Part shown: positions 1,531 to 56,325 of the stretch, piece after piece
Layout: each line of letters starts with the position of its first letter
Position numbering within the stretch: the first letter of the stretch is position 1
Assembly (NCBI RefSeq): GCF_026151205.1
Contig: NC_087077.1
Location: 12,498,983 to 12,562,982, forward strand
DNA length: 64,000 nucleotides
Origin: Bolinopsis microptera
Lineage: Eukaryota > Ctenophora > Tentaculata > Lobata > Bolinopsidae
Direction: 5' to 3'
Translations under genes and position numbers: made by a program
The notes under the pieces: model-generated
Told to the model about the DNA's origin: nothing
Databases searched by the model: none
The model's input: only the letters and a program-made list of their open reading frames with translations

Positions 1531-1612
1531 AAACCCTTATCCCAACCCTAACCCTAACCATAACCCCGAACACCGAAGCTAACCATAACCCTTACCACAA
1601 CCCTAAACCTAA
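1531..1612 (-). repeat. Degenerate telomere-like (TTAGGG) block inside a dispersed repeat
   Basis: Contains CCCTAACCCTAACC and several one-base variants. The whole block, including the flanking CCGTACAAAACGGTTTTA and the interruption CCGAAGCTAACCATAACCC, recurs inverted at 49,243-49,345. It is therefore part of a dispersed repeat, not a true chromosome end. Confidence 0.6.
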
Positions 1613-1718
1613 GACGAGCCCTAAACAACCGAATTCGTATTTTACTAGCCTGTCACGTGACCAAAAGTTTTTTTGCCCATAACTCTCCAGGGAAGCATTT
1701 TAACCCTACGTCATGGTT

Positions 1719-1815
1719 GTATCACGTTGCGACCCCCACGGTCGTTTCACTATACAGGGGGAGCCGCGCACTTCGTGCGCGGCGGATCATACAACGTATG
1801 ACAACGTATGACAAC
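1719..1815 (+). repeat. GC-rich hairpin module
   Basis: About 95 bp starting TTGTATCACGT and ending CATACAACGTATGACAA. In the middle a near-perfect stem, GCCGCGCAC with GTGCGCGGC, would fold as a tight hairpin. Close relatives sit at 20,719-20,815, 21,410-21,530 (inverted) and 49,811-49,917, with a more diverged one at 29,418-29,515. This copy lies directly upstream of a truncated LINE. Confidence 0.6.
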
Positions 1816-1900
1816 GTCATGGGGGGTGATTCGGAATCAGTGTCCAAAAATACACCGATTCCGATCACTTTCATGCCCAAAGGGCCTTTTTACAAAGGCG

Positions 1901-3518
1901 ATGAATGCAAATTTGTGCTCTATGCTGATGACACAAATATATTTATCACTGGACCGTCCAAAGAAGCAACATACTTGAAGGCCAATAAAGTTCTTGATTT
2001 CGTATGCAAATTCATGAGAAGTAATCTCTTACATATAAATATGTCTAAATGCTGCTACATACATTTTCTACCTGCATACGAATCTGATGAAACCTGCGCC
2101 AGGGTTAGGCCATATGCCAATGAATATGACAAATCACAAGGAATATTTATAAATGGACACAAAATTGTCAAGGTTAGCAACACCAAATTTCTTGGTGTAG
2201 TAATTGATGAAAAACTTAGCTGGGGCCCACATATAGAATATCTAAGAAAAAAAATTAGATCCACTACAGGAGCACTTAACAGGATTAAACATTCAGTTCC
2301 AGGGGAACACTACCAAAAAATATACTCTGCATTATTGGAATCACATCTTGCTTACGGAATAAGTGTTTGGGGCTCAGCCCTCAAAGACCAACCAAACGAT
2401 AAGCTGTTCATAACTCAGAAACGTTGTATAAGAATCCTTTTTGGAGACCTAAATGCATACCTCGACAAACATGCCACTTGTGCACGAGCCAGACCTTATA
2501 CAAAACAGAGGTTTGGAGCTGCTTTTTTCGAAAAAGAGGACACCAAGCCCATTTTTAATCGACTAAAATTGCTTACTGTTCAAAACTTGTACAAATACCA
2601 CTGTATATCTGAGATATTTCAAATTATGAAATTTCGCACTCCATACTCGTTGTACTGTACTATAGACTCATCAAAACGTGATACAAGCAATTTCATAATC
2701 CTCCCAAGAAAAACCAACACTTTTCTTTATATAGCCTCCAAATTGTGGAATAGCATACATAAACGGATTCTAAATGAGAATGGGGAAATCCTCACTACTT
2801 CTGTATCTTTGGTTAAATTACGCTGTAAAAGTATCATCCTGGGATCCCAATCCATCAACAATAATAACACCTGGACTTACCACAACTTTCACATCGCCCC
2901 TCACTCAGTCACAGACCAAACCATTTCATCACTCATTCACCAAATTGCCGACCCAATAATATCTACTGAAGTGGCGAAAATTTTCTATACAAATGATATT
3001 TCGATATTATTGCTGCAGCAGACACAAATACCAACATTATTATATTCCCAAACGTTTGAACCTTTAAATTAACTAGGAAAGTCAATCCTCAACTTGACTT
3101 TTACTGTTTTAAACAGATATGATGATAATAACTTAACTTATTATTTTTTTTTTACATACTCCTTCTTAATGTGGTGACTTGGGGTCCATAAATATAACAA
3201 TACAAGCTGATAAACCAAAAAGAACAACTGGGGTAGGTAGGTAGCCCTGGTGGGTGCGTAAACTTTACGGTCTGCTCTCTCCAAGATCAGCCTGCTTCTC
3301 CATTTTACCGTGAAGCCTAATTTCTAGTTTTTATAAAATATACAATGCAAGTGCAGGTTTACTAATCTTAATCTACTTAACAACTCAATAGCCCAAGTCA
3401 CCATACCCGTAGTATATTCCATGGTAATAGAAGAGCTTTAAAGTTTTTCAAATTGTTGCTATAATTGATTTAAATAAAAATTTGTTGTTTTCTTGAAAAA
3501 AATTTGTTGTTTTCTTGA
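1901..3518 (+). mobile_element. 5'-truncated CR1-like LINE copy
   Basis: The sequence becomes alignable to the full LINE at 24,791-28,776 just before the reverse transcriptase YADD box and stays so to the end of the 3' UTR. It shares with the full copy a 24-base identical 3' UTR block (3252-3275) and a terminal repeat of TTGTTGTTTTCTTG in two copies (3482-3518). A related uninterrupted sequence near 49,597-49,650 matches both flanks, which marks this as a retrotransposition event. Confidence 0.85.
1902..3072 (+). pseudogene. Reverse transcriptase C-terminal fragment (CR1-like LINE ORF2)
   Basis: About 390 codons remain open, beginning DECKFVLYADDTNIF, so the catalytic YADD is present but motifs A and B and the whole endonuclease are missing. 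Downstream, LHINMSKCCYIHF, KFLGVVIDEKLSW and SHLAYGISVWG match the thumb and C-terminal region of the full copy at 24,791-28,195, at roughly 60 percent identity by eye. The usual stop after the NF.. segment is lost, so the frame runs on about 60 codons into former 3' UTR. The open frame also extends upstream to 1657 through unrelated repeat, and that part is not LINE. Non-functional as a stand-alone enzyme. Confidence 0.85.
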
Positions 3519-6160: not shown

Positions 6161-6253
6161 AGCTATTAAACATTTTATATATATTATAAGACTTACCTCA
6201 CAACTTATTAATTGATCTTAATCGAATTCATTATATTAGCAGTAGGATTGGCT

Positions 6254-6988
6254 ATGTCAAAGAAGAGGAAAATATCCCCAGTTGCAGTGGTAGGCGACAC
6301 TATCATGAATTACAAACCTAACAATGCAACTGTAATAAAAAAGGAGATTAAAACTGAGCAGGAGGAGTTAGAAGGTAAATCCCATGGGTTTCTTTGTCCG
6401 AAATGTGAAGCTCATTTTCTGTATGAGGAGTACTTTTGTCATCATATCAGAGAACATCATGAAGATATTAGCAGTGTATGTAATTTGGATTCCAATGTGC
6501 TAAGAAATTCCACGAAATTGTCAGGAAAGTTGATGAATCCAATATCAGAAGAAAAATCTCTCAAGTGGAATGATTGCTCCTTATCATTCTCTAACAAACC
6601 TACTCTCAGAGCACACCAGCGTATTCACACTGGAGAGAAACCTTTCAAGTGTAATGATTGCTCCTCATCTTTCTCTCAGAAATCTAATCTCACAAAACAT
6701 CAGCGTATTCACACTGGAGAGAAACTTCACAGGTGTAATGATTGCTCCTCATCTTTCACTCAGAAATCTAATCTCACAAAACATCAGCGTATCCACACTG
6801 GAGAGAAACCTTTCAAGTGTAATGAATGCTCCTCATCTTTCTCTCAGAAATCTAATCTCACAACACATCAGCGTATCCACACTGTAGAGAAACCGTTCAA
6901 GTGTAGCGAATGCTCCTCATATTTCTCTAAAAAATGTCATCTCAGAAGACACCAGCGTATTCACACTGGAGAGAAACCTTTCAAGTGA
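6254..6988 (+). CDS. C2H2 zinc-finger protein, truncated array
   Basis: A 244-residue protein, probably a nuclear DNA-binding regulator. The first ATG of the frame (6254) gives a basic start, MSKKRK. An acidic stretch near 28-40 contains IKTEQE, resembling a SUMO acceptor site. A divergent finger lies at C48/C51/H64/H69. A degenerate finger follows, with Trp105 where the first Cys should be (then C108/H121/H125). Four canonical fingers joined by TGEKPF-type linkers come next: C133-H153, C161-H181, C189-H209 and C217-H237. Three of them share nearly the same helix (QKSNLTK/T), which suggests recent internal duplication and similar base preference. The frame stops exactly at the first Cys of the next finger. 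A 5' non-coding or extra coding exon upstream cannot be excluded. Target genes cannot be inferred. Confidence 0.75.
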   Translation: MSKKRKISPVAVVGDTIMNYKPNNATVIKKEIKTEQEELEGKSHGFLCPKCEAHFLYEEYFCHHIREHHEDISSVCNLDSNVLRNSTKLSGKLMNPISEEKSLKWNDCSLSFSNKPTLRAHQRIHTGEKPFKCNDCSSSFSQKSNLTKHQRIHTGEKLHRCNDCSSSFTQKSNLTKHQRIHTGEKPFKCNECSSSFSQKSNLTTHQRIHTVEKPFKCSECSSYFSKKCHLRRHQRIHTGEKPFK

Positions 6989-21530: not shown

Positions 21531-22600
21531 GTGTAACTGTATTGTGTATACGCGTACTGCATGACGCGCTTGTTTTTATTTCGGCGGTCGCGCGCTATAT
21601 ACTGCAATCGAGAGTTGCTCTATCCAGAGCCCTTGCGCTTGCAGTAGCGCGCGCCCGCCTCACAGCGGTAAAAAGGGCTCTAGCCATGAACCCACCCAAC
21701 GATTTTGGCACCACTGTACAGTGGTGCCAAAATTTCCCGCGCTTTTGTCCTCATATGCAACGTGTGTAGTCTTTTAGACATTGATTGTGTAAACGAGGTG
21801 TCGTACGTCACCTAAAGATCGGATGACAGGGGGCTGACCATGCCCAAACCTAATTGATCATTGATCGGGTCTGAGGTCACCTAATTATGAGCCTATGAGG
21901 TCACGTGACTATGACGACACCAGACCTTGTCCTCCGTTTCCCGCTCATTGGACCAGGTGAGCTTGCATGCTTGTGAATGTAGGTGTAAGTACAGCTGTAC
22001 TGTAGTTTATACCTAATTAACCCCTATACACGGTCACTGTGCATTATAGAAACTTGAAAAGTGGTTACTGCATACTGGAGGGAGAAGTGCCAAGACTTCC
22101 TTCGCTACATAGACGCTGTTGTCAGCACTGCACGCGCGCGCACGAACCTTCCCATCGGGGTTCGTGGATAGGTGCTTTTCTTGATTCTTGAGTTTTAATA
22201 CTTTCAACACTACTATATAACAAGTAATTTGAGGATGTCCAATATGTCCATGGCTTGCTAAAGTCAACTGCATCGGGGGTACTATGATGGTCCAGGGGTT
22301 GCTGAAACAGAAGACTGGCACTCTTAACCTGTTAAGAAGTTAGGTAGTTGTAGTGAATGATGTTTCTGTTTGGCAATGTATAACTCCATTCACACCACAA
22401 TCCACAATTGGACAATTGGACAACCCTGATTAATGTGTAGATAGTGTTGAAAGAATTTTGGACTTAAAACTTGAACATCACTTCTGATAACTTTTGGGGC
22501 TGTGCTCCAAGAACAGGCTGACATATATGGCTTATGGATTATATATATAATGTATTCTGATTAAATGATAGGGCTTGCCAGTCCAACCACCTCATATTTT
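21531..22600. other. GC-rich repeat, palindrome and LINE upstream region
   Basis: 21,545-21,680 is an inverted copy of the GGGCTCTGGTTAGAGC / CGCGCTACTGC module. 21,702-21,733 is a perfect 32-bp palindrome. The rest may include the 5' UTR of the LINE that follows, but I could not find a 5' boundary. No separate gene is seen. Confidence 0.5.
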
Positions 22601-22823
22601 TCATACTCACCCACTCTCTTGTCCCATGTGTCGTAGTCCGTCAGTCTGTTCAATTTTTCAATCAATCTTTTGAATCATTTTGACTAATCCAGTTTACACT
22701 TTCATTGTTTTCCACAACAGAACATTTCAAACTGCTTTCTGCTCTTCCTTCTTTTCAGTGAGTGTGCTAGTTGGACGTGAAGGTGCCCCCTGGTCTGCCT
22801 GGTACCCCCATTGCCTCTTCACC

Positions 22824-24794
22824 ATGATGGAAACCCCCACTCACCCAGAAAATGGTGAGACTCTTCAATCTGTTCCGGACCAGACTTCTTCTACCACGGT
22901 TCCGGACCAGACTACATCCAACACTCCTACCGTCATTGGAGATATTGACGAAGTACTGAAGGACGTTGAAAAAATAATTCTTTCAGAATACCACGAATCA
23001 GAAGAACATAAAAATTGTAGTAGCCTTCTAAGTTTCTTCTCAAATGGGTCTGCCCCCCTCGACAACTTTCTGTTGACCCATTCGCAGAGCCTACGCTCAG
23101 AGATAGACATAATCAAGCTAAACATTTGTAGCATTCTCAAAATTGATATCAACAAATTTGCAATCATTACACCATCCATGGTTAAGGGTTGTTCTTCTCT
23201 TAAAAAAATCACCCTTGCAGAGGGTCTCCTATCCTTGCTTGGGCTTGCTGAAAATGTTTGTGCTGTAGTGAGTGGCAAGAAATGTGACGATGCTAAGTCC
23301 CCTTCCTACTTGTCAGCTCCCTCCAGCATTCTAATGGGTCATACTACCTCAGACGAAAGCTCCATACACAAGTCCTTAGAAGCCATTCAGACGTCCATTA
23401 AAAACTTGAAAGACAATGATAGCCATCTTAGGACTCTCGACTCCATCAACACAAAGCTCGCTGAACTAAAACTAGACATCAACTGTTTTAAAAACAGTAG
23501 ATCATCAAATGTGTCCACTCCTGACCTTCCCATGCCACCTTTTAACATAGGGTCACCAGCAGCATCTGAGACAGTCAATGAACAGCTCCTTCTGGATGCG
23601 CAGAAGCATGCAAGTGCAGAGGATTCCAAGTCCAAGCACATTGTGTCGTATGTCCCGGACTTCATAGACACAGACTTAAACACTAAGCTGCTGGTTTTCC
23701 TTAATCAACAGAAGGAAGCCTTTGATGGCAACTCAGAGAATGGCCATGACGTTCTGAGCTTTGGCGAACCGTACGACTACCCTGGAGCTAAAGCTGCAAA
23801 GCCCAAATCAACAGAACTCCCTGAGGTTCTTGCTGAGCTAGCCTCTAAAATAAAAGATCAGCACCCAGGATCAGTGACTAACCAGTGCCTGATAAACCGA
23901 TACACCGACGAGAACAGCTTCCTTCCTAAGCACTCTGATAACGAACAGTCACTGGTCCATGATAGTTCCATCTTTACAGTATCCTTAGGAGGAGAATGCT
24001 CTGTCAAGTTCACAAAAAAAAGTGATCTTGAAGGGGAGATTGTAGAGACAGTAGAGGGATGCAGTCTCTATGTTATGAGCAAACAGTCTCAGTTTCACTG
24101 GGACCACAGAATTGACAAAAGCACGGAAAAGAGACACCTACGATATAGTATCACCTTCCGATACATAAGCAGTAGCACCAATGCGACACTGATTATTGGT
24201 GACTCCAATACCCGGTACCTCCGATTTGGGTCTGGAAAAGGAACATTTGGACACCGCTTGCCTGGAAGAAGAATAGAATGCTTCACCATAGATAAGCTAG
24301 ATCCTACCCTTTGTGTAGGTTATAAAAACATTATAGTTCATTGTGGAGTAAACAACATCAAGAATGATGGGGGGAATGTTAAATATTGGGCAAATGAGCT
24401 GAACAAAAAGCTCAAGACTATAAGTGAATTGTGCCCTTACGCTAAAATAATTGTTTCACCTATACTGCCAACTAGGTCCTCCTTGCTGAACGAAAGGGCT
24501 ATGGAGTTTAACAGGTTTTTATTTGGATACTGTGATACCAATTCTAGAATAGGTACATTAGATTTTAATAGCTTTGTTGACGAAGATGGTCTGCTGAATC
24601 AGCAGTTTTGTAGATATAAGAAGCCGGATGACCCAATTCACCTTGGATCAAACGGTATATTCAAACTCTCCCGGGCTTTTGCTCACAAGATATTTGGTAG
24701 CCCTGTTGACGGGAGATCATTCAGTGATGTTGTTAATGCCAAAGCTAGAGGCAGATTTTCCCCACGACCACGTAGATCTATACTTCAGTCATGA
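22824..24794 (+). CDS. LINE ORF1: AlkB-like dioxygenase fused to SGNH esterase
   Basis: 656 residues from the first ATG (ATGATG in a favourable ACCATGATGG context); the open frame upstream of it lacks an ATG. Residues 1-290: low-similarity region without a recognised fold. Residues about 295-450: AlkB-type 2-oxoglutarate/Fe(II) dioxygenase, with INRYTDENSFLPKHSDNE supplying H370-x-D372, the third ligand as H425 or H428, and RYSITFR giving the R440-x5-R446 pair that binds 2-oxoglutarate. AlkB enzymes demethylate nucleic acid bases oxidatively. Residues about 455-640: SGNH/GDSL hydrolase, with GDSN (Ser461 nucleophile), GVNN (508-511) and DPIH (Asp603/His606). Esterase domains are known in CR1-like ORF1 proteins; the dioxygenase is the surprise. 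All catalytic residues that I can place are present. Substrates are unknown. Confidence 0.82.
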   Translation: MMETPTHPENGETLQSVPDQTSSTTVPDQTTSNTPTVIGDIDEVLKDVEKIILSEYHESEEHKNCSSLLSFFSNGSAPLDNFLLTHSQSLRSEIDIIKLNICSILKIDINKFAIITPSMVKGCSSLKKITLAEGLLSLLGLAENVCAVVSGKKCDDAKSPSYLSAPSSILMGHTTSDESSIHKSLEAIQTSIKNLKDNDSHLRTLDSINTKLAELKLDINCFKNSRSSNVSTPDLPMPPFNIGSPAASETVNEQLLLDAQKHASAEDSKSKHIVSYVPDFIDTDLNTKLLVFLNQQKEAFDGNSENGHDVLSFGEPYDYPGAKAAKPKSTELPEVLAELASKIKDQHPGSVTNQCLINRYTDENSFLPKHSDNEQSLVHDSSIFTVSLGGECSVKFTKKSDLEGEIVETVEGCSLYVMSKQSQFHWDHRIDKSTEKRHLRYSITFRYISSSTNATLIIGDSNTRYLRFGSGKGTFGHRLPGRRIECFTIDKLDPTLCVGYKNIIVHCGVNNIKNDGGNVKYWANELNKKLKTISELCPYAKIIVSPILPTRSSLLNERAMEFNRFLFGYCDTNSRIGTLDFNSFVDEDGLLNQQFCRYKKPDDPIHLGSNGIFKLSRAFAHKIFGSPVDGRSFSDVVNAKARGRFSPRPRRSILQS

Positions 24795-27700
24795 TAGTTA
24801 AATTGATATGCGAAATTTGCTGCTGCTGCAATAAACCTGTACGAGCTGGACACCCTTTCATAATTTGTCAGATGTGTGACAAAATAATGCACAAAAAATG
24901 CAAAACTAATGACAACATAGTCAAATTTCGAGATGAAATATACTGCAAAGTCTGTATTGAAGCCAACGATATTATTCGATACAACCCTTTCTACCAAGCT
25001 CCCCACTTTGCTAACAACGGCCTTATTGATGATGAGCCAGTTAATTATATTGAATCTATCTACAACAGCTCAAAAATTCTTGAAAACTGCAAAACATTCT
25101 CCATAACAGAGTTGAATGCCACCACCCTGCCTGGAAATTCAGTCGAATATATGTCCACTTTATTCCTCAACATTGATGGGAATGCAACAAACTTTGACAA
25201 CTTTGCAGTTGAGCAGTCTAGTATAAACCACAAGTTTTCTGTTATTGGTCTTGCAGAAACAAACACTGATGCTGACAATGGAACACTATATCAGCTCAGT
25301 GGATACTCCTCGTGTTACCAATCCCGTTATTTCTGTCAAGACAAAAACCAGTTCAAGGCTAAAGGATCAGGAGTTTGTCTTTACCTGAAAAACTCTCTAA
25401 ACTTTAATAAGATTACTGGATTATCTCTCTGTAATGAGCACATAGAATCACTGTTTGTATCTATCACCAGTATGAAAGACCCAACCGTTGTAGGGGTTAT
25501 CTACCGTCCTCCAAACGCATCACTTGAACTGTTTAACGAAGCATATGAACGTATTCTCTCTAAACTGAATGGCAAGAAGGTATATATCCTTGGGGATTTC
25601 AATGTTAACATTTTAAACCACCCATCTTCATCAGAGGACAAATTCCAAGAAATAATATTTAACAATGGCTTTATACCAACCATATCAGTGCCAACTCACC
25701 ATATGCCTGGTTGTTCCAGGACTTGTATTGACAATATCCACACCAATGTATTAGACCAATCCCTTATCTCTGGTGTCATATCTGACAAGATCTCCCATCA
25801 CCACCCTATATTCACTTTTGTTAAGCTTTCCCCCGACTCTGTGTCACTATCTGATTCACCAGACAAAATTACTATACACTACGACTATAGTAATGCTAAC
25901 CTAGAGAAGCTCTGTCTTGAAATAGAAAACGATTTGGATAGGTTCCACTACAGTTGTGACACATTTGACTCTTTTATGCAGCTATTTCAAGAAAAAATAG
26001 ACTTGTCTTGCAAACTTCTAACTCCAAGAACCACTAAACGTAATAGCATAACCAACCCTTGGATTACCCAGGGCCTAATTAATTCCATCGAGAAGAAAGC
26101 TAGATTGTATTTCGAATGGAAAAAGACTTGTACATTAAAATTACCTGACGGGGATCCGAATAAGCACATTTGCTACAAGGAATTCGACAAGTTTCTCAAA
26201 AGCTCAATAAATATGGCAAAGGCTATGTGCTACACTAGAAAATTCGAAAAGTACAGCATGAACTCTAAAAAGACGTGGGAAGTTATTAATGAACTCCGTG
26301 GTAAAACTATGTCTCGATGTAAGGACGATTTTGTCATAAACGGTCAGAGAGTTACCTGCAGACGAATAATTGCTAACAAATTTTGTGAATATTTTACATC
26401 TCTTGCAAGTAATCTCAATAAAAATGTACTGTCGAACAATAGTATTTCTCTGGAACCAATTGAATCATTTGCTCAGTTCATGTCAAATTCAGTATCTGAC
26501 TCCATTTATCTGGAAGAAACTAATAAAGACGAGATCATCGAGGTGATCAAAGATTTTCAAAATGGCAAGGCGAGTGACATACCAATAATTGTTGTAAAGA
26601 AATCATCAAAGCTTATAGCTGGTACCTTGGCCAGGCTTTACAACACATGTATACAAAGTGGTACATTCCCGACTATTTTTAAAACTGGTAAAGTTATTCC
26701 CATTTACAAGAAAGACAATAAGGAATGTATCGAAAACTATCGGCCTGTATCAATATTACCTTTATTTGGAAAAATTTTCGAGAAGATCATTTACAAACGG
26801 CTCTATAATTTCTTCACATCTAAAGGTGTACTGACAGACTCACAGTTTGGATTTAGAAAAGGTCATTCCACCACTCATGCTCTACACAAATCTATAGACT
26901 CCGTTACAAAGACTCTAGCTGGCAATAAACATGTCTTAGGAATATTCATTGACTTAAGCAAAGCCTTCGACACCCTTGACCACAACATTCTTCTAAGCAA
27001 ATTAAACTCCTATGGTATTAGGGGCACAGCACTTACCTTACTTAAAAGCTATTTGACTAACAGAAAGCAGTATGTTATGTATAACGATGTACCATCAGAA
27101 ACACTGGATGTGAAATTTGGGGTACCACAGGGGTCAATTCTAGGGCCGTTACTCTTCCTACTGTATATGAACGATATAGTGAACTGTTTTTCTGACAGTG
27201 AGGTGAAATTTGTACTTTATGCTGATGACACTAATATCTTTATATCAGGACCATCTAGAGAAGCAACATACAAAAAAGCAAACTTAGTTCTTAAACATGT
27301 GTCGATTTACATGAAATGTAATCTACTCCATATCAATATGTCTAAATGTTGCTACATCCATTTTAAACCTGCCTCTGAATATGATGAGACCTGTGCAAGG
27401 ACCAGACCATTTGCTAACCTGCTAGATGAGTCTAGGTCAATATTCATCGATGGTAAGGTTATTACTAAAGTCAAGGATACCAAATTCCTAGGTATTGTTA
27501 TAGATAGTAAGTTAAACTGGGCTGCCCATATGCACTACATTCGTAAAAAACTTCGGTCCATGACTGGTGCAATCTGTAGAATTCGACACTCGATACCTGG
27601 TGAACTATATTTGAAAATATATAATGCTCTCTTTGAATCACATCTCAGTTATGGTATAAGTGTTTGGGGCGTTGTCCTTAAAGAACGATCAAATGACAGT

Positions 27701-28195
27701 CTTTTTATCACACAGAAGCACTGTGTAAGGATCCTTTTTGGTGATCTCGACTCATATTTAGATAAACAATCAACATGTGCACGTACTAGACCGTATGGTA
27801 TGCAAAAATTAGACCATAAACACTTTGAAAAGGAGCATACAAAACCCATTTTTAATAGACTAAAAATTCTAACGGCTCAAAACTTGTACAAATATCACTG
27901 CATTTTAGAATTCTCTAAGATTATCAAGTACCACTGCCCCTACTCCCTTTATGAGGCCATCAACATTTCAAACCGTGCAACGAGTCTAACTGTTATTCTT
28001 CTAAATAAATCAAATACCTTTTTGTTTAATGCAGCCAAGCTTTGGAACACAGTTCATAAAAAAATTTTAACTTCAAGCAATTGCCTAGAAACTTCCATTA
28101 ACTTGATAAAATTGAGAACCAAAGCACTATTAGTACAATCACAGGCAGCTGACTTAAAAGATACCTGGACTCCAACCAATTTTAAATTGCAGTAA
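24791..28195 (+). CDS. LINE ORF2: PHD finger, APE endonuclease, reverse transcriptase
   Basis: 1134 residues; the start ATG overlaps the ORF1 stop as ATGA. Residues 7-55 form a C4HC3 PHD-type finger (C10/C13, C26/C29, H34/C37, C52/C55). Residues about 110-350 are an APE-like endonuclease: LAETN, YRPP, GDFN (about 267-270), CIDNI and SHHHP near 335-339, where the family usually has SDH.P. Residues about 560-850 are the reverse transcriptase: FIDLSKAFDT (motif A, about 720), GVPQGSILGPLLF (about 778) and FVLYADDT (about 808). The C-terminal 280 residues match the fragments at 1902-3072 and, more distantly, 42,104-43,066. The protein would nick target DNA and reverse-transcribe its own mRNA. No frameshift or stop is seen. 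Confidence 0.92.
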   Translation: MIVKLICEICCCCNKPVRAGHPFIICQMCDKIMHKKCKTNDNIVKFRDEIYCKVCIEANDIIRYNPFYQAPHFANNGLIDDEPVNYIESIYNSSKILENCKTFSITELNATTLPGNSVEYMSTLFLNIDGNATNFDNFAVEQSSINHKFSVIGLAETNTDADNGTLYQLSGYSSCYQSRYFCQDKNQFKAKGSGVCLYLKNSLNFNKITGLSLCNEHIESLFVSITSMKDPTVVGVIYRPPNASLELFNEAYERILSKLNGKKVYILGDFNVNILNHPSSSEDKFQEIIFNNGFIPTISVPTHHMPGCSRTCIDNIHTNVLDQSLISGVISDKISHHHPIFTFVKLSPDSVSLSDSPDKITIHYDYSNANLEKLCLEIENDLDRFHYSCDTFDSFMQLFQEKIDLSCKLLTPRTTKRNSITNPWITQGLINSIEKKARLYFEWKKTCTLKLPDGDPNKHICYKEFDKFLKSSINMAKAMCYTRKFEKYSMNSKKTWEVINELRGKTMSRCKDDFVINGQRVTCRRIIANKFCEYFTSLASNLNKNVLSNNSISLEPIESFAQFMSNSVSDSIYLEETNKDEIIEVIKDFQNGKASDIPIIVVKKSSKLIAGTLARLYNTCIQSGTFPTIFKTGKVIPIYKKDNKECIENYRPVSILPLFGKIFEKIIYKRLYNFFTSKGVLTDSQFGFRKGHSTTHALHKSIDSVTKTLAGNKHVLGIFIDLSKAFDTLDHNILLSKLNSYGIRGTALTLLKSYLTNRKQYVMYNDVPSETLDVKFGVPQGSILGPLLFLLYMNDIVNCFSDSEVKFVLYADDTNIFISGPSREATYKKANLVLKHVSIYMKCNLLHINMSKCCYIHFKPASEYDETCARTRPFANLLDESRSIFIDGKVITKVKDTKFLGIVIDSKLNWAAHMHYIRKKLRSMTGAICRIRHSIPGELYLKIYNALFESHLSYGISVWGVVLKERSNDSLFITQKHCVRILFGDLDSYLDKQSTCARTRPYGMQKLDHKHFEKEHTKPIFNRLKILTAQNLYKYHCILEFSKIIKYHCPYSLYEAINISNRATSLTVILLNKSNTFLFNAAKLWNTVHKKILTSSNCLETSINLIKLRTKALLVQSQAADLKDTWTPTNFKLQ

Positions 28196-28776
28196 TTAAA
28201 TTGCACATGCAGCAGCACACACCTAATATCACTATCATGATTGAACTATAAGCTGTTAAGCTTTCAGATCCATTTTTAACCACTTGATGTAATTTTTTTT
28301 AAATAATTAAATATTTTATTTTACAAATTTATATCAGATCGAACCTATATTTGATAATCGAACCTATATTCGATAATCAAACCTGTATTCGATAGTTAAA
28401 TTTATGCGATAAATTGATATTGATATTATTATTGTTGAATGAAGTTAACTCCTGAGATAAATTTTATTAATTTTTTAACAAAGGGACTTGGAGTATAAAC
28501 GACCAAGTTCGCATAAATGCCTACCCAACCAAGAATTTAGGAGGCAAGGGTGGGTGCGTAAACTTTACGGTCTGCACTCTCCGATCCTGTATCACCCTGG
28601 ATTCTTTTTGACGTATTTTTGTATTAGGTATATACCTTCTATCCATTCTCTTGCTACTCCAAGTCCCCTAAGATATCTGGTAAAAAGGTCCTGCTAGTTA
28701 TATATAAAATATATTTATGTTTGCTTTAATTGATACTAAATAAAATTGTTGTTTTCTTGAAATTGTTGTTTTCTTG
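28196..28776 (+). other. LINE 3' UTR with conserved block and tandem tail
   Basis: 28,552-28,575 is identical over 24 bases to 3252-3275 of the truncated copy and contains CGTAAACTTTACG, which can form a small hairpin. The UTR also has short TCGAACCTATATT.GATAA repeats at 28,335-28,400. It ends with TTGTTGTTTTCTTG in two tandem copies. Confidence 0.75.
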
Positions 28777-30312
28777 TGAAACAAGCGCGCCCGCAGTGGC
28801 GCGAAAGCACATGGTTAGGTGAAAATCGAGAGGGCTCTAGTTAGAGCAAAGCTAATTTAGTTCTACTTCTAGACTGACTATTTATATTTCCACAATTATT
28901 AAGCAAATTCCTTTACCTAATCACAAATCATTTAACGGGTGATACTCGTAAAATATTTGTTTCAAATATCGCAGGACCGTCGACGAGTCCAACTCGGCGC
29001 GCGTCCTGGTAGGTTATAAAATTAAACCTACAATAAATCATATGCGCTTTCGCGCCACTTATACTTATTATACATTACACGTTATATGCGTGATGCGATT
29101 GTGATTCATTTACCTAGCTTACTATATATACTAGTCTATTGCTCGCTACTCTGCTCAAATATTCAGCTGGTATTGCTCGCTACTCTAAATGCGAGAAGCC
29201 CGAAAAAAGCGCTGCGCATTGGGATTAGCGTGCCAGGTAAGTGAGGTAACGTTTTGCCTTGCTCTAACCAGAGCCCTCTCGCTTGCAGTAGCGTGAAACA
29301 AGCGCGTCACGCAGTACGCGTAGGCACATGGCTATGTGAACGTTTTGCCGCCGAATGGCGGGTGAGTACAGTTTTTTGGATTTGGTTCATGGTTAGTGAT
29401 TCAAGCTTGTGGCTTGAATCTCGTGACCCCCATTGTCGTTCAATTCAACTAAGTGGCGAAAGCCACGATAGTGAGCGCGCGTGCGCGGCAGGTACTTAGA
29501 TCTACAACGTGTGACAAATTCAACATTCAAGCAAGGTAGTTTATATAATCCTAAAAAAGTTGGATCGGTGAGGTAATTTAGTAAAATATATTGAGAATAT
29601 GTCCACATAGCCATGCATGTGCCTCCGGCGGTCGCGCGCTACTGCAAGCGAGAGGGCTCTGGTTAGAGCAAAGAATATGCAAACTTAGTATTTGACGAGT
29701 CCGGCCTATTACTCAGCGCACGTCTTAATAGATTAATTTATAATTACTTAATGGGTGATACTCGTAAAATATTTGTTTCAAATATTTTACCGTCGACGAG
29801 TCTTACTGGGCCGCGCTCAGCCTGTCATTCCGCCAAATCTTTATTCGGCGTTAATGAACATAATAGCCTGGGGTCCTCAGGTAACGACGAGTCCTGAGAC
29901 CTGAGTCCAACTCGGCGCGAGTCCAACTTGACGCGCTTGTTTCACGCAATTTTTTCTGCTGCATGGTTAGAGCAAGTTATGAACCTACAAATAATTACCT
30001 ACACGAATTAATATTTTGAATAAAGGTGCAAATTCAAAATTTTAATATTGAATTTTAATTTATACTACAAATAAGCGCTCCTACTTAATTGACGATGTCA
30101 ATTCATGGCAGCTCGGCGCGGCACAGTAGCGCATCTCGCCGATCTAGCTGTGAGAAGCCTTATTAAGTGCGCGGCGCGGCACAGTAACGCATCGCGCTAC
30201 AACGCTCCTACTAAATCGCTCGCCCATTAAATTTTGAATAAAATTCTTGTTTTTTGAAAGAAAAATTTATTTTGAAAGAAAAATTTTTATTTACCACAAA
30301 ACAATCAATACA
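28777..30312. repeat. Mosaic of GC-rich repeat modules
   Basis: No gene. Recognisable pieces: GGGCTCTGGTTAGAGC modules (28,800-28,855; 29,255-29,335; 29,610-29,672), GATACTCGTAAAATATTTG modules (28,935-29,020; 29,755-29,810, the latter followed by its own inverted copy), a diverged hairpin module (29,418-29,515), a CAGCCTGTCATTCCGCC segment shared with 49,740-49,800, and GGGCGAGCGATTTAGTA in reverse (near 30,222-30,236). Positions 29,885 onward are repeated at 33,921 onward as part of a 4.04-kb tandem duplication. Confidence 0.6.
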
Positions 30313-41464: not shown

Positions 41465-43093
41465 TACTCAATGAAACAAGAAATTTTCAATGAAACAAGA
41501 AATTTAATTTTAGCACATTTTACAGAATAAAAAGATGTAAAACAATTCATAAAATATAATGCCCATTTGGTGTATGACTTTTTGTCCTTGACTGCTAGTT
41601 TGGTTTTGGAAGGACAGGTAACTACCGGGGCAAGGAATGCGCGTGCCTGAAAGCTTTTGCACACACCGAAACGCTAGTTCAGTTAGGTTTTTAGAGACAG
41701 GGCTCATTTTAGGACTAGAAGAAATTTGTTAGTAGACATTAGGGGTTCTGTTTATAGTTGTTACTATAGGTTGCAGTCTTGTTGTGACAAAAAATCTACA
41801 CTAAAACATGCTTTAGTTTATATTGTGTGGTTCAAGGATATAAAATGTGGCTTCAAGGTGGATATTAAAGAGCTTGCGAAAGATTATGGCCTTTGTATCA
41901 ATGGTTATAATAAGCTATAAATATCTTAAACTATACAGTGCTAATTAAAAATTTCTTTATACTTCATTCTCAGATTAGATTTAAAAATTCAAAAAATATA
42001 CATTTATTTTATTAATACCTTCTCACACATTCTTTACTCACAGGACAAGACTTGGAAAACAGTAGCCTAGAGGAATTTAATTGAGATGTGTGTGAACAGC
42101 CAGTTATAATGTTTGGAAAATAATATTTGTGCAGTCAAAATCTTTTACGGTCCAATCAAGCAGGGCGTGGTTATGCTGATTGGCTAATAGTGCACTTTTA
42201 AGTTTTCCTCGCAAGCACATTACACTAGTAGTAAAGTCAGTCATTCTGAACTTTGGGGTTAAAATGTTAAAAATTTTGGTTGACCTAGTGTTGTGGTTGT
42301 CAGGTGGGTCTACCTGACAGATAAGAAGGCAGGGTTTCCTCGACGAACATGTGTAACCCTCATATAGGGATATTGGAGCACGGAATTTCATTATCTTGTA
42401 GAGCTCGAGGTAACTGTGGTATGTATAGAGATTTTGTATAGCTAGAATATTATTATGCTTGAATATCGGTTTGGTGTGTTCTTTTATGAAAAATTTTTGG
42501 TCAAGTTTCTGGTGTCCTATAGGCCTAGTACGTGCACAAGTCTTAAACTTATCAAGGTACGCCAGCCTATCACCAAATAGTACTCTGAGACAGTACTTCT
42601 GAGCAGTAAATATTGAGCTTATACGTTGCTTAGCTGCCCCACCCCATACAGATATACAGTAGGAAAGATGTGATTCGAACAGAGTATAATATAATTGTTG
42701 ATGTAGGAATTCTGGAAGGGAGCAGCGAAGTCTACATAAAGTGGACGTGGAATGATTTAGGGTTCGCTTAAGAGCTTTAATGTGATCTTCCCATGATAGG
42801 TTCTCGTCAATTATAACACCCAGAAATTTTGCGGATGAAACCTTTTTGATTGGATAGTTGTCTATAGTTAGTACAGGTTCAGGGTGTGATAAAATCTCTG
42901 ACTTAGAACCTGCCATGTTGGGTTTGAAGTGTATGTAGCAGCACTTGGACATGTTTATATGTAACTTATTCGCTCTCATATAAGACTGTAATGATGACAA
43001 AAGCTCATTTCCTCGTTCATATGCCTCACGTTTTGTTTTGCCGACAACAAATATATTAGTGGTCAAGGAACAATCTGGCCCGGATCCAGTGCC
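41465..43093 (-). mobile_element. 5'-truncated CR1-like LINE nested in the foldback right arm
   Basis: The right arm is continuous on either side (ATAAAGTGGGG before; ATTTATTTAAGGTCCGG after). On the minus strand the insert ends in two tandem copies of AATTTCTTGTTTCATTGA, a short-repeat tail like that of the other LINE copies. It starts just after the reverse transcriptase YADD codons. Confidence 0.8.
42104..43066 (-). pseudogene. Reverse transcriptase C-terminal fragment (CR1-like, distinct subfamily)
   Basis: About 315 residues with no stop, beginning TNIFVVGKTKREAY, directly after where YADD would be. NKLHINMSKCCYIHFKPN, AKFLGVIIDENLSWEDHIK and LFESHLSYCISVWGGAAK match the C-terminal third of the intact ORF2 at lower identity than the 1902-3072 copy does, so it comes from another subfamily. 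The endonuclease and polymerase motifs A-C are missing. A relic with no independent function. Confidence 0.85.
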
Positions 43094-44553: not shown

Positions 44554-45370
44554 ATTTAAAAGCTCGGGATAGCTTTGAGTAACGATAGATTACTTGGCGG
44601 GAATTAAGGTGGGGTCGGGATATGATGGAGGTATATATGGGACTGGGCTTCAGGTCCGTCAACAATGACACCTCTGCTGTACAGCTGACTAGTTCAGGCA
44701 CCATTTAAGGGACCAGAGATTGATCACCTCTGAAATCTTAGTGGTGGTTATGGTAGTAAAATCTTGAGTCGAGACAAGGTCAACGTTGAGACGCTGAAGT
44801 ATATTTAGAGCTCTAAAGACCAGTTAATGATATGGGGATACAAGATGTGATGATTTTACAAGAAATGGGGATTTTACAAGAAATGGGGATTTTACAAGAT
44901 GTGATGATTTTACAAGATGTGGGGATTTTACAAGAAGTGGGGATTTTACAAGATGTGATGATTTTACAAGATGTGGGGATTTTACAAGAAGTGGGGATTT
45001 TACAAGATGTGATGATTTTACAAGATGTGGGGATTTTACAAGAAGTGGGGAATTTACAAGATGTGATGATTTTAACGATGTGGGGATTATACAAAATTTG
45101 GGAATTTTACAAGTGTGATGATTTTGATGATGAGGAAATGGTGATGATGTGGGGAAAAGTAATTTAAAGATGTGGGGATTTTAAGGAGTGAAGTGAGTAT
45201 GAAGTGAAAAAGTGAAAAGGAACGGTGTCGCAGAAACAAATTTTCAAACATATATAAAATGATTGTAAAAAATAAATAAACCTTCCCCTAATCACCCTTA
45301 ATCATCCTCTTATCATCAAAGTTTAAATTATAACATAACTCATTTAGCTAGTTAAAGACCAGGATTAAAC
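44554..45370 (+). other. Remainder of the LTR retrotransposon leader
   Basis: Last 87-bp unit (from 44,559) and the 18-bp array (44,839-45,082), matching 32,960-33,770 at a constant 11,600-bp offset. It leads directly into the gag ATG. Confidence 0.85.
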
Positions 45371-46270
45371 ATGGAACATCAAGAAGGAAACATCGAACAG
45401 GCACCAGGAATCATCCTAGAGGCCCCAGAAGTCCCACCAAGAAATGCTGGCCACGGGGCGGTTAACTTCATGAGGATGCCCCCCAGATATACCCAAAATA
45501 ATGACATAGACATGTTTCTGCGACGTTTCCGCAGCTATATGCAAGCGGCCGGGATTCGGGGAAATGATAGAGTCAATGCCTCACTGTCGTTGCTCGATGA
45601 CGCAACGATTCTTGCTATTGAAAGACACCTGGACAATGACAACATCACCTTCGAAGAACTGGTAGAAATTCTGCGAAGGGAAACAGGGGTAGCTCTGGCT
45701 AATAGAGAACGGTTCATCAAGGAACTACGGACACGCCGGCAGGAAAAAGATGAGCCAGTTCGAACCTTTTACCAAAACCTCTACCAGCTGGCCAGAAAAA
45801 GCTACGATAATGAAGCAGTCGCGGCAAATGCACTGCGGGAAAACTTCATTTACAAACTCAGGGATTTGCAGATATCGAGCAGATTGCGGGAACACCCAAT
45901 GATGGCAAATGAGGATATACTGCAGCTGGCGGTCACGCTAGAAGCGTGTAAAGTCATCCCCGGTGCGGATTATAGCCTGTTAAATGTGAACGCCACAGTT
46001 ACCGACCCAGCAGGAACTCAACCACTGTCAACAGAAAAGAAAGATCGGAGGGATCATCAGACTACAAGTATGGAGACCGTGGTGGGGATGCTGCGCGGAC
46101 TATCCGCGCAGGTCTCCACCATGGCCAACAACTCCTCGAGAACACCCCCTGACAGTGACAGCGAAGGTTGCTATCATTATAAAGGGTCAAGAATAACGCC
46201 GGGATTGAGAGAACAAGAGCGTCACGGTTATTACCCCGATAACTCCAGTAACAGCGGCTACCATAATTGA
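45371..46270 (+). CDS. gag: LTR retrotransposon Gag (capsid), zinc knuckle degenerate
   Basis: 299 residues. The region about 30-205 has the helical, charged character of LTR-retrotransposon capsids (MFLRRFRSYMQAAGI, VRTFYQNLYQLARKSY). Near 268-275 CYHYKGSR sits where a CCHC zinc knuckle would start, but the second Cys and the rest of the motif are not there. After the stop at 46,268-46,270 the same frame continues in Gag-like charged sequence broken by further stops, so the C-terminus looks eroded. Gag would package element RNA into particles. No protease, reverse transcriptase or integrase follows, so movement would need enzymes from another element. An intact N-terminal half is duplicated only as the 33,771 fragment. 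Confidence 0.75.
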   Translation: MEHQEGNIEQAPGIILEAPEVPPRNAGHGAVNFMRMPPRYTQNNDIDMFLRRFRSYMQAAGIRGNDRVNASLSLLDDATILAIERHLDNDNITFEELVEILRRETGVALANRERFIKELRTRRQEKDEPVRTFYQNLYQLARKSYDNEAVAANALRENFIYKLRDLQISSRLREHPMMANEDILQLAVTLEACKVIPGADYSLLNVNATVTDPAGTQPLSTEKKDRRDHQTTSMETVVGMLRGLSAQVSTMANNSSRTPPDSDSEGCYHYKGSRITPGLREQERHGYYPDNSSNSGYHN

Positions 46271-52223: not shown

Positions 52224-52985
52224 AACCAGTAACTGATTCCAATTAAACTAAAAAGTCATTAGGTACTAGTTACTAGTTATTAGTTACTAGTTACTAGTTA
52301 CTATAGTAGAACAATCAGTAAGCTTATCTACTACCTGTTATAACACTGGGTATCAATATAGCAGATTTAATGAAGATCACGGTAGGCTCATAACAAAATT
52401 GACTCTATCATTAATAGTAACAAACCTGCAACATGACATTATTACTGTCCGGGCAGGAGGATCCAATGAAATTACCCCGGCAACCAGTTGAAAAGCCAGG
52501 TAATTGATCAGAAATACAATAACATGATACAACAATCCTGAGTCGAGTTAAGAACCTAAGGTTTTTAGGTCTTGATGTCATTCAGCGCTAAAGAATGCCA
52601 ACAGGGAGTAACAAAGAATAATAAACCGAACATCCCAGTTGAATTTCTACTGCAAATTAACTTGAACACACGTTTGTAGGGTACCACGTGACACGCAAGC
52701 TGGCCAATAAGCTATCGAATAGCAGTCACGCTGACCAATCAGAGGGCTGGCTGTTACATGTTAGTCGGGTGCGGACCACTTATGCCAGTCTAGCTGACGC
52801 CAAACAACTACACTGATACACTCAAATTTATAATTTCCAAATGTGCTCTAAAAGAACAAATAGGAGCCTCGGTTCCTACACCCGAATCTATTTATTACAC
52901 ATCAAAAAGCTTAAACCAAGATTATCCTAGAGATATATCTCCAAATACCATTCAAGTAAGGTTGCGTCCCGATCATGGAACTAGT
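52224..52985. other. Intergenic; short tandem TAGTTACTAG repeats and CCAAT/E-box patch
   Basis: 52,265-52,310 holds TTACTAGTTAC-type repeats. 52,680-52,750 combines CACGTGAC, GGCCAATAAG and GACCAATCAG, like the patches in the STIL introns. No gene seen. Confidence 0.4.
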
Positions 52986-53320
52986 GGGAGGGAGGGAGGG
53001 AGGGAGGGAGGGAGGGAGGGAGGGAGGGAGGGAGGGAGGGAGGGAGGGAGGGAGGGAGGGAGGGAGGGAGGGAGGGAGGGAGGGAGGGAGGGAGGGAGGG
53101 AGGGAGGGAGGGAGGGAGGGAGGGAGGGAGGGAGGGAGGGAGGGAGGGAGGGAGGGAGGGAGGGAGGGAGGGAGGGAGGGAGGGAGGGAGGGAGGGAGGG
53201 AGGGAGGGAGGGAGGGAGGGAGGGAGGGAGGGAGGGAGGGAGGGAGGGAGGGAGGGAGGGAGGGAGGGAGGGAGGGAGGGAGGGAGGGAGGGAGGGAGGG
53301 ATGGAGGGAGGGAGGGAGGG
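52986..53320 (+). repeat. (GGGA)n microsatellite, about 330 bp
   Basis: About 83 tandem GGGA/GAGG units, uninterrupted to 53,300, where a single T breaks one unit, then GCGAGCGGG variants. The long open frames in all registers (Gly-Arg-Glu or Pro-Ser repeats) are artefacts of the 4-base period. The strand is almost pure purine and G-rich, so it could adopt quadruplex or triplex structures. Confidence 0.97.
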
Positions 53321-53339
53321 CGAGCGGGAGGGCGAGCGG

Positions 53340-53650
53340 GCGGGCGACCAGTCTACAGTAGTGAGTTCCTTGTTGATCAAGGCCCAGTCAGCAGCATTGA
53401 AGTTGATGTCATCAAGTGCTGTGACAGGGCGCTGTACTGTTTCCTTGCTGGTTGCTCAAGTAGGAACTGCGGGTGGAGGAAAGTACAAACTACAGGTCAC
53501 TATGACGTGGTCTGATTTCTCCGTCTTTGACACTGATAAACCGTGGATTAAATCGATATTGTTGGAGTGGATCACGTCAAGGATGTTTTGGTCCTTCCTA
53601 GTGGGTTCGTCGACTAGCTGCTATAGGAGCAGTCAGATCATGTTTACTTC
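53340..53650 (-). pseudogene. Decayed LINE endonuclease C-terminal fragment
   Basis: On the minus strand the frame reads VDEPTRKDQNILDVI, NNIDLIHGLSVSKTEKSDH and VIVTCSLYFPPP, the pattern of the APE-type endonuclease end of animal non-LTR elements (the SDH triad is intact here). It contains at least one internal stop (after the PPPAVPT segment) and then runs into the (GGGA)n array. A fragment of an old element of another family. Confidence 0.7.
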
Positions 53651-53654
53651 TTAA

Positions 53655-56325
53655 TGTACAGCTATGATTTACAGAATTGATTTACAGAATGATTTACAGA
53701 ATTGACATGTGAACTCTACCCCAGATCTAGCCCATTTCTATGTCAATTAAATTCAATCCATGGATCACATGATTGCAACCGTGGCGACAATGCAAAATAC
53801 AAACAGTGGACAGTGCCACATAAAAAAGTGCCAAAATCATACATTTTTCTTGGATGTATGTAGCTCTCATGACATTGAAACCATAACAATAACAAAAGCG
53901 TACGAGAAGGGTATCACTTTAAGGCAAATGACAGATGACAGAGATATTCAACAAACTGCAAGCGATAGGTTTATCAAAAGGTTTAATGCAGAGAGCGAGT
54001 GAGAAAGAGTTTGGAACAAAAGCTTGTATCTGATCTCAAGCTAGCACGTACACGCAAGCGCGCTATATCACGCGCACGTGACTTAAACACTGCAATATCA
54101 TTGGTCATCTTTATATCCAATGCGAAATACAAACGAGCGCGTTTTTCCTATAATCCATGGCGAGTGAATTAGTGAAACCGAAATTTGTAGGGATGAGGAA
54201 GTGTTGTTATGTCGTAAAACCAACTTAAATCGATTTCTCATGCAATGTTAGGTGAGGAACAGTCACCAAAATGAGTTGCATAACTGCTGTGTGTCACTCA
54301 AGTTGCAAAGCTGCATTAAACATATTGCAACGAACATTTCTCTCTGAAAATTGTGTTAGTACTTGTTAGATCAGTTAAGGTGACGATTGCCTGGATCTTT
54401 CGGTTTCAGCTTAACTCCCTAGGCCCTAGGTCATGAGTAGAATCGAAGGATTAAAAAGCAAAATTTATGTTGCTTGTTGCTCGTATTAACTATAAATCAT
54501 CAATTTTGAGGGATAGGGAAGTGTTTAGAATAGGTTCTGAAACCTAGTAAAGTCGATTTCTCATGCAATTTTAGGTCAAGAACAGTCATCAAAATGAGTT
54601 AATAACAAGGTCGATTTCTTGGTTATTTTTAAGCTTTCGTTCAGAAATAATTCGGAACTATAGGGGGGCAACAAGAAGGAGTTACAAGCGTTACGAGAGC
54701 GTTGCATAATACAAAATGTGCATCACCTCTTTCTCCTGCTGAACAGGTACTTACCCTTAAAAGTAAACAAATGTGCATCACCTCTCTCTCCTGCTGAACA
54801 GGTACTTACTATTAAAGTAAACAAACGTACCTTTACCTCCCCACGAGAATCCACATCTATAATAGTGTAGTACTATGTTTAGAGTGCACTACAATGTAAA
54901 TGTACTGAAGGGGTATCCTAAGATGATTCTTGATCTTTCGGTAGTGTCCTCTTTGTATGTAGAATAAAATTGCTGTAATTTCTAATAGAATTCTTTGATA
55001 GTTTTTATCACATTAAATCAACCACCAGAGCAAAGGTAAAGATTATGTGTGTTAGACACTGCACACAACGTAATAACCTTAATGTGCTTAGGTTTTAATA
55101 TTCATTTTAGGTGCATTGCACGTTTCTACCCTCGTTGCTGTGTAATCTTTTAATTTTTTCCGTGTGGGCAGTCATACACGCACACAGAAAACTTCGAATC
55201 ATAATTATCATTGGGTGTTCTCAATATAATTGTAAATTGAATAGTTTACTTGAGCTTGAGGGAGTGGATGGCATCTTCTTGTCTTAAGTGTTCTCTTGTT
55301 ATCAGTATTCATATTCTTTTGTCTTTTTGTTCTTTTATACCAATTGTATTGGTACTTGAATAGCAGTTTGTCTTGAGTTGAATAGACCCTTTACCCTACC
55401 CCATCTTGACTAAAAACGTCCATTGTTTCCTCCCTACTGCTTTGTCCCCATTGTAACCTCCCCATTGTCATTATCACTCTTTGATCTCCATAAGTTGACA
55501 GTATCAAAGTTTGAATGATCATTATATCGTTTCCAAACCCTGTGCTGTGCTGTTTTACGTTTTTGGCAACATTTGGATGACTATAGTTCGACAAGATACA
55601 ATGACAAATTCGTAAAATTCGTAAATGTTTCAGAGATTATATTTGTATGGGTTTGAAATATGACTCAATTGTAGGCTTTTCTAAATTCTTTATCTAGTCA
55701 TTTTTTCATTTATTTGACTCTTATTCACCTTGCATTACAATTTTATCTGGTCTTTACTTCATCTCTCATTGTTACATCTACTTTCATTTCCAGAGAGACA
55801 GATAGGGGTAAGACACATAATTTATATTGCAAAAAGCTGCAGTCTGCAAGTTATCAAGTTTTTCTGTTAATAATTTTTCTGATCAGGTTATATGGCTGTT
55901 GATTAACTGCAACTGCAATTAACTGCTATTAAGTAGTTGTAAAATGAAAATTGTCAAGATCTCTGTTGGAAGTCAATCATTGTTTCATAACATTCATATG
56001 TGGTCACCTTTCGTTTAAAGTGCATTATTTATTGTCTACATATACATACGTGCACACATATTGGTGTGACTCGTGATCAACACCATAGAACAGAATTTGT
56101 ATTTATAGCTGATTATTGAAGAATGTTCGTTTTCGTTTCTCTTTCTTCATAGTCTGATCTGTTTCATGTAAGCTAACCTTGTGAGCACAAAGGTATTTGC
56201 TTACTGTAGATTAATGTATAGTGTATAGTATACTGTATACTGTATAAATATGAAATCGGTTTGATATATGTACGATTATTTGATAGAACTGATGCTTTAA
56301 TTCGCCAATTTATAAGGTGAAAATC
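53655..56325. other. Intergenic region upstream of the PMI gene
   Basis: An 80-codon ATG frame at 53,760-54,002 has no recognised domain. 54,050-54,180 is a GCGCGC/CACGTG-rich repeat with GGCGAGTGAATTAGTGAAA. The blocks at 54,200-54,320 and 54,500-54,600 resemble each other (TCGATTTCTCATGCAAT.TTAGGT). A tandem duplication of about 57 bp containing ATGTGCATCACCTCT and CTGCTGAACAGGTACTTAC spans 54,715-54,828. The region just before 56,326 has TATACTGTATACTGTATAAA, which could serve as a TATA-type element. Confidence 0.4.

Follow-up and report, generated by a model that had tools for sequence, protein, structure and literature searches.

Can a retrotransposon carry its own enzyme for cleaning the RNA that it copies? 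The question is raised by a long interspersed nuclear element (LINE) in a 64-kb stretch of the ctenophore Bolinopsis microptera (contig NC_087077.1, positions 12,498,983 to 12,562,982; "the window" below is this whole stretch of 64,000 nucleotides), in which the protein of the first open reading frame (ORF1) joins an AlkB-type dioxygenase to an SGNH esterase. Of the two halves of a LINE, the ORF1 protein (ORF1p) is the less well understood, and the question of how an esterase-type ORF1p holds RNA was left open in PMC3905857. An intact dioxygenase in such a protein makes it a testable idea that base methylation of RNA, whether enzymatic or due to damage, limits retrotransposition and that elements counter it with a demethylase of their own. 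We tentatively, and at somewhat less than even odds, read the protein as a distinct and old class of animal LINE ORF1, in which an AlkB RNA-repair enzyme would demethylate the element's own RNA within the ribonucleoprotein particle (RNP) and spare the reverse transcriptase (RT) from stops. If this is true, LINE copying in these animals would be limited by base methylation of the RNA that serves as template.

RESULTS

An AlkB dioxygenase and an SGNH esterase share one ORF1

The features of ORF1 are as follows (residue numbers are those of ORF1p).

22824..24794, +: ORF1, 656 amino acids (N-terminal region, AlkB domain, SGNH esterase, basic tail), without internal stop; 33 homologous proteins
23055..23261, +: helical N-terminal domain, residues 78-146 (AlphaFold2 pLDDT 74-88 over residues 81-140)
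23361..23495, +: predicted helices, possible coiled coil, residues 180-224 (helices 180-196 and 199-224, pLDDT ~62-68, low confidence)
23622..24173, +: AlkB-type Fe(II)/2-oxoglutarate dioxygenase domain, residues 267-450 (Pfam, fold)
23931..23939, +: HSD motif with iron ligands H370 and D372 (identical in 24/24)
24105..24107, +: third iron ligand, H428 (identical in 24/24)
24141..24161, +: R440-x5-R446, the 2-oxoglutarate and substrate arginines (both identical in 24/24)
24180..24698, +: SGNH esterase domain, residues 453-625 (GDSN 459-462, PG 480-481, N510, D603, H606)
24699..24791, +: Arg-rich C-terminal tail, residues 626-656 (net charge +5)

A frame of 656 open codons would arise by chance with a probability of ~8e-20 at the local base composition. 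The AlkB domain scores 63.3 bits against Pfam PF13532 (cut-off 31.2, E 4.5e-17) and matches ALKBH3 among PDB sequences (phmmer, E 1.8e-6), and a double-stranded beta-helix is predicted for it by an AlphaFold2 model and fold comparison. A preliminary description of this DNA, made from the letters alone, had read the frame, its coordinates and the order of an HxD...H...Rx5R signature followed by SGNH motifs correctly, and it had named a beta-helix around the iron site as a check, which the prediction bears out. Its central claim, that the two domains are joined in a single LINE ORF1, agrees with Pfam, with the fold models and with the catalytic residues conserved in many relatives. The same description had placed the third iron ligand at H425-428; H370 and D372 stand and H428 is the third ligand, invariant in all 24 aligned proteins, whereas H425 is ruled out, since that position is mostly occupied by other residues. 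The ligands and both arginines are invariant in 24 of 24 proteins, relatives from other sources included, at identities down to 27%; the description had named conservation among other copies of this LINE as a second check, and among relatives from other sources the ligands are indeed conserved. Because the catalytic residues are conserved, the domain is apparently a working dioxygenase. The roles assigned to the two arginines follow PMC544882. E-values, folds and conservation together rule out a chance motif match.

By sequence, the nearest known proteins to the AlkB domain are ALKBH3, ALKBH2 and ALKBH8, and by fold they are ALKBH3 and ALKBH2, with ~22-26% of the aligned fold positions identical; the fold match to ALKBH5 has a lower Z than those to ALKBH2 and ALKBH3. 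Neither ALKBH5 nor FTO occurs in the sequence-match lists, which is no proof against N6-methyladenine (m6A) as the substrate. ALKBH3 and ALKBH2 act on substrates of the 1-methyladenine (m1A) and 3-methylcytosine (m3C) type, and because these two enzymes are the nearest by fold and among the nearest by sequence, we lean toward an m1A/m3C-type substrate over m6A. Both m1A and m3C are AlkB substrates according to PMC544882.

The SGNH assignment is weak by sequence, with 18.8 bits against Pfam PF13472 (Lipase_GDSL_2) and thus under the cut-off of 32.9, and firm by predicted fold and motif conservation. The cut-off is a measure of sequence similarity and does not bear on function. An SGNH fold is predicted for residues 453-625, 16 of the 24 family members match Lipase_GDSL_2 at E <= 0.01, and the domain matches the esterase of ZfL2-1 ORF1 (4c1b) at E 0.0011. 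S461, G481, N510, D603 and H606 are each present in 23 of 24 proteins, the exception being P0025, whose gene model skips most of the domain.

Outside the two enzyme domains, the N-terminal helical domain (residues 78-146) is kept in the nearer relatives, and a PHD-like finger and other helices take its place in P0030-P0033. The modeled helices at residues 180-224 may form a coiled coil. RRS occurs near the end of the tail in 8 of the 13 ORF1 tails listed, the one in the window included.

The domain order is kept in relatives and recurs in a second genome

Homology searches scored ~8,000 candidates each, so the relatives counted here are a minimum. The first search gave at least 33 proteins homologous to ORF1, and a second, with the profile of alignment A1, added one (P0035). 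Alignment A1 comprises 24 proteins, 10 of the 33 relatives (P0003, P0006, P0009, P0015, P0019, P0021, P0022, P0023, P0024 and P0028) having been set aside by manual choice to reduce the number of near copies and incomplete proteins. The order of AlkB and then SGNH is kept in 57 of 62 informative relatives and also appears in the predicted model of a distant relative.

Two proteins come from Mnemiopsis. In P0025 (783 amino acids, assigned to Mnemiopsis leidyi by its source), an AlkB part is followed by 273 residues with 66% identity to residues 359-631 of the ORF2 protein in the window, and in P0052 an AlkB core runs into GDSN, with 44% identity to the ORF1p in the window over 124 residues. Together they indicate that the AlkB-bearing ORF1 and the same ORF2 co-occur in a second genome. 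Two queries of IMG/VR viral contigs and one set of GTDB genome contigs yielded 41, 13 and 30 pattern-matching stretches, respectively, among which no relative was confirmed.

The element around ORF1

The remaining parts of the element are as follows.

22708..22823, +: 5' untranslated stretch, seemingly part of the element (by-eye likeness of the translated frame to relatives)
24791..24794, +: ATGA overlap of the ORF1 stop and the ORF2 start, read from the sequence
24791..28195, +: ORF2, 1,134 amino acids (open frame, Pfam)
24818..24964, +: PHD-like zinc finger at the start of ORF2 (PHD finger protein 23, 6wxk, E 7.8e-4; Pfam PHD E 2.9, below cut-off)
25235..25789, +: APE-type endonuclease region of ORF2 (Exo_endo_phos E 0.0037, Exo_endo_phos_2 E 0.00094; both below the Pfam cut-off)
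26708..27499, +: RT of ORF2 (Pfam RVT_1 E 2.8e-36; LINE-1 ORF2p E ~3e-16)
28338..28394, +: tandem 19-base repeats in the 3' region, 3.0 copies (repeat scan)

The TGA stop of ORF1 shares its ATGA with the ATG of ORF2, whose frame runs to 28195 and would be open by chance with a probability of ~9e-34 at the local base composition. Two Pfam endonuclease families give sub-threshold matches before the RT, the place of the APE-type endonuclease in CR1/L2 elements (Jockey superfamily), and the esterase-bearing ORF1 sits 5' of the endonuclease-RT ORF2, as in LINEs with a type IV (esterase) ORF1. Short tandem repeats of the kind found here often make up the 3' ends of CR1/L2-like elements. The element is an intact LINE, CR1/L2-like by its architecture, and because the ORF1 and ORF2 frames are intact, it has probably been active recently, as judged from the frames only. 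In the ~115 bases upstream of ORF1, which seem to belong to the element, a translated frame resembles, by eye, the predicted N-terminal extensions of P0003, P0004 and P0008; the true 5' boundary of the element was not found there. Scans for bacterial promoters and tRNAs gave nothing useful.

Other RT sequences are present in the window. A partial copy at 1891-2895 (+), within a 502-codon frame (1564-3072), is 62% identical to ORF2 residues 800-1133 and belongs to a related LINE that is apparently 5' truncated. A more distant partial copy at 42137-43060 (-) is 42% identical to the end of ORF2.

Other features in the window

An uninterrupted frame for a type I mannose-6-phosphate isomerase at 56293-57516 (+; Pfam PMI_typeI_cat, E 2e-46) is a single-exon host gene or a retrocopy, and a piece of a 6-phosphogluconate dehydrogenase gene at 61094-61549 (+; Pfam 6PGD, E 9.4e-19, first 40 positions) is probably one exon. 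A 304-codon frame at 45356-46270 (+) looks like a retroelement gag by eye and has no Pfam match at 0.01. An array of C2H2 zinc fingers lies at 6212-6988 (+; zf-H2C2_2, E 2.1e-38), and a long short-unit repeat coding for GREGG at 52794-53654 is open in several frames on both strands.

DISCUSSION

Methyl groups on the Watson-Crick face of bases block reverse transcriptases, and treatment with AlkB relieves this block in tRNA sequencing. Because of such stops, we favor a role as template cleaner for the dioxygenase in ORF1p. The protein would assemble on the RNA of its own element, with the AlkB domain providing a structured nucleic-acid-binding surface and oxidatively demethylating the Watson-Crick face of bases of the m1A and m3C type, and the RNP would thus carry a cleaner with which ORF2 could make full-length copies of the RNA. 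The esterase would anchor or remodel the membrane contacts of the particle, as has been proposed for ZfL2-1. We give this mechanism a probability of roughly 0.5. The esterase ORF1 proteins in RepBase are described in PMC3905857 as having no RNA recognition motif or other structured RNA-binding domain, with the joining of the particle left open; for this reason the AlkB domain could serve as the RNA-binding part.

The same shortage of a binding domain would make a bare platform useful, and the AlkB fold could be a module for RNA binding or assembly without catalysis. We think this improbable, since binding alone would not demand that the iron ligands and both arginines stay invariant across the alignment down to its most diverged members. 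If the domain is an enzyme, it might instead be an m6A eraser that removes host-placed m6A from the element RNA and lets it escape readers and decay. This parallels the proposal made for an orchid Ty3/Gypsy element; given the ranking of the ALKBH proteins above, we consider it unlikely. Somewhat more doubtful still is DNA as the target, with the domain clearing alkylated bases or those marked by N6-methyladenine (6mA) during target-primed reverse transcription, be it in the cDNA, in the nicked target or in the element's own DNA. Structures of ALKBH2 with double-stranded DNA tie with ALKBH3 by fold, and a DNA N6-methyladenine demethylase is among the weaker sequence matches (E 6e-4), but ORF1 proteins belong to RNA particles in the systems described in PMC3905857. 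That the whole arrangement is an artefact, a host ALKBH gene fused by chance or an assembly join, might be thought from its single copy in the window; the 57 relatives with the same domain order, the model of the distant relative and the Mnemiopsis proteins P0025 and P0052 rule this out for practical purposes.

Several observations weigh against the favored explanation. The AlkB domain has a net charge of -7, which is unusual for a domain that binds RNA strongly. ALKBH8, a tRNA hydroxylase, is almost as near by sequence as ALKBH2 and ALKBH3, and the fold match of ALKBH6 falls between those two and ALKBH5, so the chemistry of the domain could differ from that proposed. With the family profile, the SGNH proteins 8gr2 and PatB (~6e-6 and 8e-6) come ahead of ZfL2-1 (0.0059). 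No exact direct repeat of 10-25 bases, as a target-site duplication would give, was found between 21900-22840 and 28300-29000. Finally, in a tree built from 31 element rows together with 20 of the 28 stand-alone proteins and 3 human fragments, no branch sets the element AlkB domains apart from the rest (two changes), and 0% of 200 bootstrap trees have such a branch.

In this tree, inferred freely, the stand-alone AlkB proteins have long branches and are nested in two separate places within the element domains, and a tree constrained to a single clade of element AlkB domains is equally good (p-AU 0.498). A single old capture of the domain would be compatible with these data. A phage AlkB family lies near the element domain (E 2.7e-15), and the top 50 viral fold matches are a mix of giant viruses, plant and other RNA viruses, and phages.

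The preliminary description did not know AlkB as a standard LINE domain, and we likewise found no AlkB domain in a LINE among the papers listed from an open-licence library; an earlier mention may exist in Repbase reports or in a 2016 review of eukaryotic adenine methylation, which may touch on AlkB within mobile elements. LINE ORF1 proteins with esterase or PHD domains are described in PMC4120745 and PMC3905857, and the text of the former mentions neither AlkB nor an oxygenase. The element is best described as a LINE of the esterase type to whose ORF1 a nucleic-acid dioxygenase has been added.

Among known systems, the closest are the type IV ORF1 proteins of CR1, L2 and RTEX, as exemplified by ZfL2-1 ORF1p (4c1b, PMC3905857), which like the ORF1p in the window have an SGNH domain on the C-terminal side with its catalytic residues kept. 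Both have predicted helices before the esterase and an endonuclease-RT ORF2 downstream; the protein in the window differs in the AlkB domain directly before the esterase, and thereby departs from the RepBase members, which are reported to have no other structured nucleic-acid domain. Human ALKBH3 and ALKBH2, the nearest solved structures by fold, are stand-alone cellular repair enzymes. Retroelement capture of accessory enzymes is also known from long terminal repeat (LTR) elements of bdelloids, which have acquired GDSL esterase or exonuclease ORFs (PMC5408684); these esterases do not cluster with those of LINEs, and the text of that paper names no AlkB or oxygenase.

Plant RNA viruses with an AlkB domain replicate without reverse transcription. 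In the replicases of Flexiviridae and other plant RNA viruses, AlkB likewise lies within a larger protein, encoded by a replicon that passes through RNA, in a viral replicase context, and RNA repair has been proposed as its role (PMC544882). Another retrotransposon-encoded AlkB-family dioxygenase is that of the Phalaenopsis Ty3/Gypsy element, an ALKBH5-like protein from a separate extra ORF of an LTR element, with m6A activity in vitro and presented in the title as a recent orchid acquisition (PMC9289625). The element in the window is by comparison a LINE with AlkB inside ORF1, is nearest to ALKBH2 and ALKBH3 and has many diverged relatives. It would add a further RNA-stage replicon with a captured AlkB to the plant RNA viruses and the orchid LTR element, in both of which this solution has apparently arisen separately.
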